Source of the DNA: an uncultured Oligella sp.
GTDB taxonomy: Bacteria; Pseudomonadota; Gammaproteobacteria; Burkholderiales; Burkholderiaceae_B
Assembly (NCBI GenBank): GCA_947632105.1
Contig: CANROD010000002.1
Coordinates: 1-64,000 of the forward strand
Length of the DNA stretch: 64,000 bases
Direction of reading: 5' to 3'
How positions within the stretch are numbered: the first letter of the stretch is position 1; every line of letters starts with the position of its first letter. A program made the translations under genes and the position numbers. Positions 46,118 through 50,877 of this stretch are shown in pieces. The notes under the pieces were generated by a model. That model had not been told where the DNA came from. It ran no database searches and worked only from the letters and a program-made list of their open reading frames with translations.

Positions 46118-47691
46118 GATTCTGCACCTATTTCTTTGTGTGTGTTTTTGGCATGATGTGCCGTAAAGTCATCTGGGAATTTCTTTAAAGCTGACAAGAC
46201 AGGTAGGGGAGTTAGACCTCCTAAGGCGCATAATGAAGCAGCAGTCATGGTGTCGCAGAGATCGTGAAGCAGCTCAGTATTAGCATCAGTATCGATGTTT
46301 TGACGAATTTTTTGAATAACCTCAACACCACGAGTAGAACCGATTCGACAGGGAGTGCATTTGCCACAAGACTCAATAGCGCAGAACTCCATGGCATACT
46401 CGGCCATTTGTGACATATCGACTGTCTCGTCAAAAGCCACAATACCGCCGTGTCCAACCATCGATTCGATGGTAGCGTAAGCCTCATAGTCTAAGGGAGT
46501 ATCCCATTCCTCAGCGGATAGATAAGAGCCAAGAGGCCCCCCGACTTGTACGCTTTTAAGGGCTAAGCCACTAGCACTGCCGCCACCAAAATCGTAAAGT
46601 AAGGACTGTAGACTGATGCCAAAAGCTTTTTCTACCAAACCACCTTGCTTGATGTTGCCACTTAGCTGAAAAGCCAAGGTACCCCGTGAGCGGCCCATGC
46701 CGTAATGTTGATAGAATTCTGCGCCTTTACTTAAAATAATTGGCACAGAAGCTAGGGAAACTACATTGTTAACTACTGTTGGTTTATTCATAAACCCTTG
46801 GATAGCCGGTAGGGGAGGTTTAGAGCGAATGGTACCGCGTTTACCTTCTAGGCTATTTAATAAAGAAGTCTCTTCGCCACAAATATATGCTCCAGCGCCC
46901 ATACGAACTTCTAGATTGAAGAGATTGTCAGTGCCAAGAATGTTTTGACCCAGATAGCCTTCTTGATAAGCTTTGTTAATTGCTTCCTCAAGTACTTCGA
47001 AGGCGAGGGGGTATTCGGAGCGGACATATATATAGCCTTGGGTTGCACCAACGGCTAAACCAGCGATAATCATGCCCTCAATCAAACAGAAGGGGTCACC
47101 CTCCATAAGGATGCGGTCAGAGAAGGTGCCAGAGTCTCCTTCATCGGCATTGCAGATGATATATTTTTGAGAGGCTGCGGCTTTTCTAACTGTATCCCAC
47201 TTAATTCCAGTGGGGAAAGCTGCTCCACCGCGACCACGTAGACCAGAATTGCTTATCTGCTTGACGATGCTTTCTTGATCTAAACTTAAGGCATTTTTCA
47301 AACCATTCCAGCCATCGTGCTTTGTATAGTCGTCTAGGCTGAGAGGATCAATGAGGCCGACCTTAGCGAAGGTTAGACGTTCTTGATTTTTTAAATAGGG
47401 AATTTCATCGGTTAAACCATGACATAAAGGGTGCTGAGCACCGTGGAGCCAGTCCGCGTCAAATAAACTGTCTAAATCCTCTTCTAAAATTGGTCCGTAG
47501 GCGATGCGGCCATTGTCAGTAAGTACCTCGATTAGTGGTTCCAGCCAGAGCAAACCGCGCGTGCCATTACGGATAATAGTGAGGTCAAGATCTTGCTTTT
47601 TTGCTTTCAAACGAATAGGTTCAAGGATCTCCTCAACTCCCATTGCGAGAGCCGCTGTATCTCTAGGAATATAAATAGTCACTTGATTCAT
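46111..47691 (-). CDS. fdsB: NAD-dependent formate dehydrogenase, beta (NuoF-like) subunit
   Basis: Diaphorase subunit passing electrons from the Fe-S chain to NAD+ through FMN, 526 aa. An N-terminal thioredoxin-like part is followed by the NuoF domain: SNSGLRGRGGAAFPTGIKW (NAD/FMN loop), NADEGDSGTFSDR, MGAGAYICGEETSLLNSLEGKRG and the [4Fe-4S] site ESCGKCTPCRIGS. Starts within the fdsG stop (ATGA) and overlaps fdsA. Confidence 0.95.
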   Translation of the reverse strand: MNQVTIYIPRDTAALAMGVEEILEPIRLKAKKQDLDLTIIRNGTRGLLWLEPLIEVLTDNGRIAYGPILEEDLDSLFDADWLHGAQHPLCHGLTDEIPYLKNQERLTFAKVGLIDPLSLDDYTKHDGWNGLKNALSLDQESIVKQISNSGLRGRGGAAFPTGIKWDTVRKAAASQKYIICNADEGDSGTFSDRILMEGDPFCLIEGMIIAGLAVGATQGYIYVRSEYPLAFEVLEEAINKAYQEGYLGQNILGTDNLFNLEVRMGAGAYICGEETSLLNSLEGKRGTIRSKPPLPAIQGFMNKPTVVNNVVSLASVPIILSKGAEFYQHYGMGRSRGTLAFQLSGNIKQGGLVEKAFGISLQSLLYDFGGGSASGLALKSVQVGGPLGSYLSAEEWDTPLDYEAYATIESMVGHGGIVAFDETVDMSQMAEYAMEFCAIESCGKCTPCRIGSTRGVEVIQKIRQNIDTDANTELLHDLCDTMTAASLCALGGLTPLPVLSALKKFPDDFTAHHAKNTHKEIGAESC

Positions 47692-48158
47692 GCTAAAGTC
47701 CTCTCCAGTGATGTTTTTATTTTATTAAGTGTGAGTTTAGCAATAGCCTTGTTGTTAATAGCAGCTGCAGGACTTTGTGCACAAAGGCCAAGACAGTACA
47801 CATTTTCTACAGCCACGTCGTAATTGTTTTCTTGTAAGTGCTGCAAAAGCTCATTTTTTAATTGAAGTGCGCCCATCGATTGACAGGATTCAGCCTGACA
47901 AATTTCGATGACGATTTTTTTTGGGGTGCTGGTTTTGAAGTGGCTGTAGAAAGAAATGACCCCATGAATCTCTGCGGATGATAGGTTTAAAGCATCAGCT
48001 AAAGGAGAGATCAAGGATTGGGGAATAAAGCCTATCTTATCTTGAAGACTATGCAAAATAGGCAAAAGATTACCTTCCTTGCTTAAATGCTCGGCTAGCA
48101 CCTTTTTTAATAAGGGTTTATAGTTTTTGTGAAAGCTAAGTGGTTGATTTTTATGCAT
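47688..48158 (-). CDS. fdsG: NAD-dependent formate dehydrogenase, gamma (NuoE-like) subunit
   Basis: [2Fe-2S] thioredoxin-fold subunit, 156 aa, first gene of fdsGBAD. Four Cys ligands appear as CQAESCQSMGA and YCLGLCAQSPA; the second site has C-x3-C, normal for NuoE. GFIPQSLISPLADALNLSSAEIHGVISFYSHF is the NuoE helical start. Its promoter region lies in the 48.2-48.7 kb non-coding stretch, where a 19-base palindrome sits over the expected -35. Confidence 0.93.
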   Translation of the reverse strand: MHKNQPLSFHKNYKPLLKKVLAEHLSKEGNLLPILHSLQDKIGFIPQSLISPLADALNLSSAEIHGVISFYSHFKTSTPKKIVIEICQAESCQSMGALQLKNELLQHLQENNYDVAVENVYCLGLCAQSPAAAINNKAIAKLTLNKIKTSLERTLA

Positions 48159-48185
48159 ATTTATAGGTTATGAAAAATAAATTGA

Positions 48186-48218
48186 ATCATACAGAATATG
48201 ATAGCTTAGTAAGCTATC
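48186..48218 (-). promoter_or_regulatory. Candidate fds promoter with palindromic operator
   Basis: On the minus strand a TATGAT -10 (48186-48191) lies 28 bases before the fdsG start. A near-perfect palindrome GATAGCTTA-C-TAAGCTATC (48200-48218) covers the expected -35, which itself is poor. That layout fits an activator- or repressor-controlled promoter; fds operons in relatives are controlled by a LysR-type protein (FdsR), and none is encoded in this window. Confidence 0.45.
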
Positions 48219-48219
48219 T

Positions 48220-48391
48220 TGGCATTTAGGAGAAAACCCTAGAACGTAGGTGCTAAAACTCACGTAATAATGAGTTTTTCTCATCTCTTTAGTGAGTTTA
48301 GGAATAAGGCTTTAAGCCTTGTGCAAATATTTCATTTTGATTAATACCTCATCAAAAATAATTAATCGTTATTAATCAAGGCGATAAGATA
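48220..48391. other. Palindrome-rich non-coding stretch
   Basis: No ORF is supported. Inverted repeats are close together: AAAACTCA/TGAGTTTT (48255-48278), with a competing partner GTGAGTTT at 48292-48299; a 15-base palindrome AAGGCTTTAAGCCTT (48306-48320); and TTGATTAATA/TATTAATCAA (48338-48379). Some may be RNA hairpins in an fds leader, others protein sites. Function not recognised. Confidence 0.5.
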
Positions 48392-48441
48392 TATTCATCA
48401 CACTGTGCACAGAGTTACCCACAATTTCTGTGGATAACTGT
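48392..48441. repeat. Copy 1 of ~50-bp repeat with inverted DnaA-box pair
   Basis: Begins TATTCATCA. Holds TTACCCACA (48415-48423; one mismatch to TTATCCACA) and TGTGGATAA (48429-48437; perfect consensus on the minus strand), 5 bases apart in inverted orientation. Copy 2 starts 179 bases downstream with the same layout. Confidence 0.6.
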
Positions 48442-48570
48442 AATGGTTAATACTAAGTCTGCAGTTTTTTGGGATTAATTCTCTTAAAGCCAATTATTTT
48501 GCTCTTTTGAGTGATTTGATTAATCTATCATCAGTTATGACTAAGTATTATGAATCAATTAGATAGCGTT

Positions 48571-48620
48571 TATTCATCAGACTACGCACAACGTTTTCCA
48601 CATAATCAGTGGATAACTTA
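48571..48620. repeat. Copy 2 of ~50-bp repeat with inverted DnaA-box pair
   Basis: Begins TATTCATCA. Holds TTTTCCACA (48594-48602) and AGTGGATAA (48608-48616; reverse complement TTATCCACT), each one mismatch from the DnaA box, again 5 bases apart and inverted. The ~130 bases between the copies are AT-rich, with GATTAAT motifs and an inverted TAATACTAAGT/ACTAAGTATTA pair. Confidence 0.6.
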
Positions 48621-48643
48621 TTATTGTCATTATTTGGTTATAT

Positions 48644-48677
48644 GAAAAAGCCCACATTCATAAAATGAGTGTGGGCT
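48644..48677 (-). terminator. Rho-independent terminator of aceA-glcB
   Basis: Read on the minus strand, AGCCCACACTCAT / ATGAATGTGGGCT form a 13-bp stem with one wobble and a short loop, followed by TTTTTC. It lies about 25 bases after the glcB stop. Confidence 0.8.
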
Positions 48678-48702
48678 GAGAGTGATTACCTCGACAGGCT
48701 TG

Positions 48703-50877
48703 TTAGCGCTTTTTAACTTCTTGGCGCCAGTGATGCAGTAAAGGCTCAGTGTAGCCATTTGGCTGCTCTTTACCCTTAAAGATTAAGTCTCTAGCCGCTT
48801 GGAAGGCAGCAGAGTTTTGCTCATTACCAGCCATTTTTTGATAGAGTGGATCGCCGTCGTTTTGACCATCTACGATAACGGCCATGCGTGATAAAGCGGC
48901 TTCAACTTCCTCTTGACTCACAATCCCATGCTCTAACCAGTTGCAAATATGCTGGCTGGAAATACGCAAGGTCGCTCGGTCTTCCATTAGACCAATATTG
49001 TGAATGTCCAATACCTTTGAGCAGCCTACGCCTTGATCGACCCAACGGACGACATAGCCCAAAATACCTTGGCAGTTATTATCTAACTCCTCTTGCTTTT
49101 CGGCATCTGTCCATGACGTATCGGTGGCGACAGGAATAGTTAAGATATCATCAAGATAGTTACTCTTATCCTGAGCTTTTTCTTTTTGAATATCAAAGAC
49201 ATTGACTTGATGGTAATGCAGACTATGAAGTGTTGCACCGGTTGGGGAGGGGACCCAAGCGGTGGTTGCACCTGATTTAGGGTGAGCAATTTTTTGCTCA
49301 AGCATGTCTTTCATTAAATCAGGCATTGCCCACATACCCTTACCAATTTGCGCTTTACCAGCTAAGCCACACGCTAAGCCAACTTGGACGTTATTTGCCT
49401 CATATGCCTTAATCCAAGGTAATCCCTTCATGTCGCCTTTACGCACCATAGGGCCAGCGAGCATAGAGGTATGCATTTCGTCACCTGTACGATCTAAGAA
49501 GCCAGTGTTAATAAATACGCAACGCTCTTTTGCTTCGTTAATACACGCTTTAAGGTTGACTGAAGTACGCCTCTCCTCATCCATAATACCCATTTTTAAG
49601 GTGTTTTTAGGTAACTTGCTTAGTACTTCTGCAGCGGTAAATAGCTCATTAGCAAAGGCTACCTCTTCTGGTCCGTGCATTTTAGGCTTAACAATATAGA
49701 CACTACCTGTGCGACTATTTTGATTGCTTCCTCTACTTTGATCATAAGCAGCAATTAGGGCAGTAACGACTGCATCTAAAATACCTTCAGGGATCATATT
49801 GCCTGCGTCATCCAGTACCGCAGGAGTAGTCATTAAATGACCTACATTACGGCAAAATAATAATGAACGACCAGGTAGTTTGATAGGCTGTTGATCTGTA
49901 ATTGATAAATATTCGCGATCGGGGTTTAGACGACGGGTAAAAATTTTGCCGTCTTTAGCTACTTCTTCACTCAACTCACCATTCATTAAACCTAACCAGT
50001 TGCTATAAACTAAGGCTTTGTCCTCACCATCAACTGCAGCAACTGAGTCCTCTAAGTCAAAAATAGATGTTAAGGCCGCTTCCATCACAATATCTTTGAC
50101 GCCAGCTAAATCTTGACTACCGATAGGATGGTTTTTGTCGATTAAAATATCAAAGTGGAGACCATTGTGGAGAAAGAGGATTGAGTTTGGTGCGTCAGGT
50201 GAGCCGTTAAATCCAATCAATAGCTCGTTCTGTTGTAGCGTAGCTTCACTGCCATTACGTAGTTTAACTTTTAGTGTGCCGTTATCGATCGTATATTGGA
50301 TGGCATCACTATGCGAACCCTCAGTTAATGGAATACTTTGATCTAAGAAGTCACGTCCGAAAGCAATGACTGCGGCACCTCGCTTTGGGTTGTATTCACC
50401 AGTGTGAGCTAAATCGCCATTTTGAGCGATGGCATCTGTACCATAAAGTGCGTCATATAAGCTGCCCCAGCGCGCATTGGCAGCGTTTAATACGTAACGA
50501 GCATTGGTCGCAGGTACAACTAATTGTGGACCAGCTTGTTCGGCAATTTCACGATCGACATTTTCTGTGGCGATTTCAAAATCTCCCGGTTCATCAACTA
50601 AATAGCCAATCTCTTTTAGAAAGGCTTTATAAGGAGCCATATCTTGGATAGGACCGGGATTGGCTTTATGCCATTGATCTATTTTTGCTTGTAACTCATC
50701 ACGTTTGGCCAGTAGAGCTTGATTTTTTGGAGCAAACTCATTGATTAATGCTGAAAAGTTTTTCCAAAACTCGTCACTATCTAATTTTTGTGGGTGATTG
50801 GCGAGGATTTCATCATTAATCAACTTAAATAGCGTTTCTTCTACCTGAAGAGATTCGATTTTCTTATATGTTGTCAT
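48703..50877 (-). CDS. glcB: Malate synthase G
   Basis: Condenses glyoxylate with acetyl-CoA to malate, cytosolic; 724 aa, the normal length for isoform G. Motifs: [19 protein letters not shown], the substrate/Mg region [58 protein letters not shown] and [14 protein letters not shown]; the catalytic-base segment reads [17 protein letters not shown]. An AGGAG precedes the ATG. It follows aceA on the same strand, so both glyoxylate-bypass enzymes are probably co-transcribed. Confidence 0.96.

Follow-up and report, generated by a model that had tools for sequence, protein, structure and literature searches.

The window analysed here, a 64,000-nt stretch from an uncultured Oligella sp., contains an intergenic gap flanked by glcB and by an fdsG-like gene that opens the fds (formate dehydrogenase) operon (Table 1). 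The original prediction placed in this gap a duplicated module, each copy with an inverted pair of DnaA-box-like 9-mers, and this description was reproduced in full: TATTCATCA begins at 48392 and again at 48571 (a step of 179 bp), the four 9-mers (TTACCCACA and TGTGGATAA in the first copy, TTTTCCACA and AGTGGATAA in the second) lie where they were placed, and 5 bp separate the inverted 9-mers in both copies. Reading each copy as a pair was nonetheless incomplete, since a third box per copy (CTGTGCACA and CTACGCACA, each 3 bp from the adjacent box) had been overlooked. On the minus strand, each module is ordered as box I, 5 bp, an inverted box II, 3 bp, and box III, giving TTATCCACA-gaaat-TGTGGGTAA-ctc-TGTGCACAG in module A and TTATCCACT-gatta-TGTGGAAAA-cgt-TGTGCGTAG in module B. 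Boxes I and II have at most one mismatch to the DnaA consensus in both copies, and box III is weak in both, with three mismatches and only the TGTG core (E. coli box III has two). Single DnaA-like 9-mers occur in the window at chance level (17 observed versus 16.8 expected), so that it is the layout of the boxes that carries the signal.

Table 1. Features of the fdsG-glcB gap and its flanking genes, in window coordinates
Feature	Position	Strand	Details
fdsG-like gene	47688..48158	-	156 aa; start of fds (formate dehydrogenase) operon
Intergenic gap	48159-48702		between fdsG-like gene (-) and glcB (-)
glcB	48703..50877	-	malate synthase G
Whole module A	48328..48437	-	core, TGATGA, TTGATT and ATTAATCA blocks; from three-species and copy-to-copy alignment
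Module A, DARS-like core	48403..48437	-	box I TTATCCACA, box II TGTGGGTAA, box III TGTGCACAG
Module A boxes	I 48429-48437, II 48415-48423, III 48403-48411	-	
Candidate IHF-like half site TTGATT, module A	48374..48379	-	23 nt past box III
Whole module B	48507..48616	-	block order as in module A; from three-species and copy-to-copy alignment
Module B, DARS-like core	48582..48616	-	box I TTATCCACT, box II TGTGGAAAA, box III TGTGCGTAG
Module B boxes	I 48608-48616, II 48594-48602, III 48582-48590	-	
Candidate IHF-like half site TTGATT, module B	48553..48558	-	23 nt past box III

DARS sites (DnaA-reactivating sequences) strip ADP from DnaA, which is then reloaded with ATP. In E. coli K-12, DARS1 in the bioD-uvrB gap reads TTATCCACT-attcc-TGTGGATAA-cca-TGTGTATTA and DARS2, in the region before mutH, reads TTATTCACC-ttttc-TGTGGATAG-agt-TGTGAAGAA; the window modules are identical to both in their 9-5-9-3-9 geometry and box orientations. 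The DARS core has been defined as three boxes, equally spaced at the two sites, with box I opposed to boxes II and III (PMC5742627), and both window modules have this core, including the opposed box I and the 5- and 3-bp spacers. E. coli carries 52 similarly arranged box pairs and just two loci identified as DARS (PMC5835720), however, and geometry is therefore no proof of activity. A reading of the repeats as transcription-factor palindromes was abandoned when a third box came to light and the modules proved to match the E. coli sites.

The array recurs downstream of glcB in six species of the genus, with two modules in the window's own genome, G001, G002 and G006, and four in G003 and G007; G002 carries an extra third module whose box III is displaced by one base. 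Successive modules are 179 bp apart in the window and in G001, 180 bp in G006, 292 bp in G002, 179, 233 and 221 bp in G003, and 295, 295 and 303 bp in G007, so that the step varies from 179 to 303 bp across the six species while the internal box spacing stays fixed. An alignment of the gap among relatives, proposed earlier as a check, showed the boxes and their internal spacing to be kept and the flanks to have diverged. In the three-species alignment, 31 of 36 positions in boxes I and II were invariant versus 141 of 325 outside the modules, counts that are not independent because the module copies share descent. The six bases TTGATT were invariant in both modules, and a TTGAT starts at exactly +23 from box III in 19 of the 22 non-xseA modules of the genus. 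Together with its preceding bases, the TTGAT of module B agrees with eight of the nine fixed positions of the IHF consensus WATCAANNNNTTR by manual count. Further along the flank, xseA-linked loci (L003, L023, L157, L160 and others) have a recurrent TTGC, at +39 after box III in the genus and at +48/49 in other Burkholderiales; E. coli DARS1 has TTGC at +38. This motif possibly marks a second protein site.

While glcB is the constant neighbor of the array in all six species, the gene on the other side varies and is not always fds. A match to fds lies beside the array in the window's genome, G001 and G006, but none was found in the available stretches flanking the array in G007 and G002, and the G003 contig terminates just past the array. 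In G007, the array lies between glcB and a gene resembling, by its sequence, that of a universal stress protein. These neighborhoods bear on the earlier suggestion of DnaA-linked control of fds, and on the broader possibility that the gap is a promoter region through which DnaA controls fds or glcB. In favor of such control, the modules are 230-460 bp upstream of fdsG, and E. coli DARS1 and DARS2 themselves precede uvrB and mutH. However, the array lies on the downstream side of glcB, past a hairpin, it persists in G007 beside a neighbor that is not fds, and the identical core geometry occurs by xseA, priA and other genes elsewhere; we therefore consider promoter control very unlikely. Between the modules and fdsG, window positions 48159-48300 hold a hairpin (ACTCAT...TGAGT) and a conserved block around TTCTAGGGTTT, a stretch kept in the window's genome, G001 and G006 and seen also at the G003 contig end. 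No Rfam family fitted this stretch, and its reading as an RNA element was rejected after the search returned just two sub-threshold chance hits.

We searched for the core with the pattern TTATCCACNNNNNNTGTGGATAANNNTGTG (21 fixed positions, at most two mismatches), using the reversed pattern as a control. Both window copies have one mismatch in the 21 fixed positions. In an enteric 4.95-Mb contig (G692), matches were confined to two loci, by uvrB/bioD and by mutH/rppH, which, judged by their neighbors, are DARS1 and DARS2; two matches in G707 likewise have uvrB and mutH/rppH as neighbors. The oriC region of E. coli lacks the pattern, even when five mismatches are allowed. At least one match was detected in 245 of 300 genomes from Burkholderiales, in 186 of 229 from the class Gammaproteobacteria and in 111 of 200 from a phylum sample, and the reversed pattern gave no match in any of the Burkholderiales, class and phylum genomes scanned. 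Outside the class, the phylum sample included many near-complete genomes with no match (none in families f230, f237, f240 and f243, and one in f247), and families f231, f235 and f239, also outside the class, were often matched. When both gaps were allowed to vary in a scan of 150 genomes, the exact DARS spacing was recovered in 28 of 35 distinct matches, out of 100 possible gap combinations. At glcB, the core appears particular to the genus: there was no match at up to four mismatches in 769 kb of other, comparable glcB loci, and a search of the remaining named glcB loci outside the genus, at three mismatches, was likewise empty. The chance frequency of single 9-mers in the window would fit a fortuitous or functionless repeat, but the empty reversed-pattern control, the lack of matches in the comparable glcB loci and the conservation of boxes amid divergent flanks make this explanation almost certainly wrong.

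Reviews have described DARS-like sequences as conserved in many proteobacterial species (2023; PMC10380432) and have mentioned DARS in beta- and gammaproteobacteria proximal to E. coli (2017), so the wide spread of DARS was already known in outline. In the literature, of which our coverage was incomplete, we found no paper on DARS at xseA or priA-hemE, nor on tandem arrays.

The loci fetched for closer inspection were best matches plus hand picks and are thus not an unbiased sample; among them, 23 genomes from nine Burkholderiales families have a core next to xseA, in most cases in the lpxK-xseA interval, and several Burkholderiales genomes have one between priA and hemE. Tandem cores 117-503 bp apart were also seen in another Burkholderiales family, f7 (G024:C1, G074:C1, G284:C9 and G312:C1), located, for example, at xseA and priA-hemE. 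At another locus (L164; G222:C10:1187500-1194500), a core match adjoins a TrwC-type relaxase gene; a plasmid or integrated element there may have been equipped with a DARS-like site, as is the case for ColE1.

A secondary or relocated replication origin, which had also been proposed for the locus, would be in keeping with the AT-rich flanks and the DnaA boxes. Nonetheless, the GC skew stays positive or close to zero throughout the window and shows no lasting change of sign; it falls to roughly zero between 44 and 52 kb, where the genes are on the minus strand. Moreover, dnaA is located on another contig (C9) with an ordinary box cluster of its own upstream, before a short ORF whose sequence reads as rpmH. 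In the nine genomes whose main contig carries dnaA, cores are at least ~90 kb away from that gene, so these matches are not oriC. An origin at this locus is thus highly improbable, and the original view that the gap is not the standard oriC is upheld, neither a skew switch nor a dnaA neighborhood being present. Like DARS, the array has a position outside oriC that is conserved among relatives, beside glcB in six species and not at dnaA.

Within the genus, the lpxK-xseA core is retained, there too as two modules. No core was found near hemE in seven genus genomes (flanks of ~1.5 kb, six mismatches allowed), and in G002, which is 99% complete, the pattern matches solely the glcB and xseA places, from which we infer that the glcB array replaces the priA-hemE site. 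Unlike its relatives, G005 of the same genus (1.9 Mb, 100% complete) lacks the core pattern throughout its genome. The window's own genome has a third locus (L158; G000:C16:500-9500) with three core-like modules at C16:3276, 8512 and 8724; two of them are near-identical, an inverted repeat follows each, and genes for a TetR regulator and an FMO-like oxidase are nearby.

The DnaA of the window's genome shares 45% identity with its E. coli counterpart and retains D269, R285, L290, R334 and R399, among them the DARS-used residues D269 and L290, although R227 of AID-1 is not kept. In the genus, IHF/HU-family genes number two to three per genome, a gene for a Fis-sized HTH_8 protein is present, and a 230-aa DnaA-like protein, which we take to be Hda, occurs in G001 and G007 and was not seen in the incomplete genome of the window.

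Among the options raised in the original prediction, that of a DnaA-reactivating locus is strongly supported by box geometry and phylogeny, and the two modules are quite probably DARS-type sites. The best reading of the array is a lineage-specific, multi-module DARS locus at which nucleotide exchange would take place. At E. coli DARS, the ADP-releasing step is the head-to-head contact of DnaA on boxes I and II (PMC5742627; PMC8682772). In the modules, DnaA-ADP on box I and on the oppositely facing box II would pair head to head in this way, while box III would hold a third DnaA; IHF, binding ~23 nt past box III, would bend the flanking DNA onto the complex. The contact would release ADP, and apo-DnaA would depart and take up ATP, raising initiation competence. 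DnaA binding, IHF occupancy, nucleotide exchange and an effect on initiation timing are thus predicted for the modules by analogy with E. coli. This reading is weakened by the weak box III, by R227 not being kept, by the IHF-like site lying at +23, compared with +74 for the best IHF-consensus match in the flank of E. coli DARS2, and by the absence of a match in G005.

It is possible, and we propose it tentatively, that DARS is ancestral in beta- and gammaproteobacteria, where it often occupies two sites near genes of DNA repair or replication, namely uvrB and mutH in enterics and xseA and priA in Burkholderiales. Under this proposal, the second of these sites would have relocated to glcB in the window's genus and given rise to a tunable array, whose number of modules (two to four, each with an IHF-like site of its own) would set the strength of DnaA recharging. 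DARS have been studied almost only in E. coli, and we found no map across proteobacteria in the literature covered. Here, one 21-position pattern yields candidate DARS sites across the class at named places (lpxK-xseA, priA-hemE and the glcB array), and because module number differs naturally among the arrays, they can be used to ask how DnaA recharging sets initiation timing.

Among known systems, E. coli datA resembles the modules in combining DnaA boxes with an IHF site, but it has the opposite effect on DnaA. A titration or datA-like site, another of the original options, would lower initiation, either by sequestering DnaA on its tandem high-affinity boxes or by promoting ATP hydrolysis together with IHF. 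Several strong boxes with an IHF-like site at a fixed distance are consistent with this role, and every DARS locus titrates DnaA as well. However, titration alone does not require exact 5- and 3-bp spacers, and datA fails the geometry test: it has no head-to-head 5-bp pair, and the three-box core is absent from it at up to four mismatches, its one match having five. We therefore regard a titration site as unlikely, and DARS-type modules as the preferred reading.

The double DnaA boxes of Stringer et al. 2024 (PMC11317965) share the box II-box III pair with its 3-bp spacing, but the definition of that class includes no inverted box I, which every module here has. The lpxK-xseA and priA-hemE cores of Burkholderiales share the core geometry of the glcB modules and occur across families of the order, whereas the glcB array was observed in the window's genus only. 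E. coli DARS1 (bioD-uvrB) shares the three boxes, their order and orientation and both spacers, and its box I, TTATCCACT, is also that of module B; it differs in having a single core and a flank without the fixed TTGAT. DARS1 is independent of IHF, and DARS2 requires it; Fis sites, too, are defined at DARS2. DARS2 (rppH-mutH) has the same core as the modules, and its best match to the IHF consensus in a flank scan lies ~74 nt past box III, compared with +23 in the window. As a further resemblance, a second core-like arrangement, though degenerate, follows 316 bp further on in DARS2; in the window's genus, the cores repeat two to four times at similar quality.
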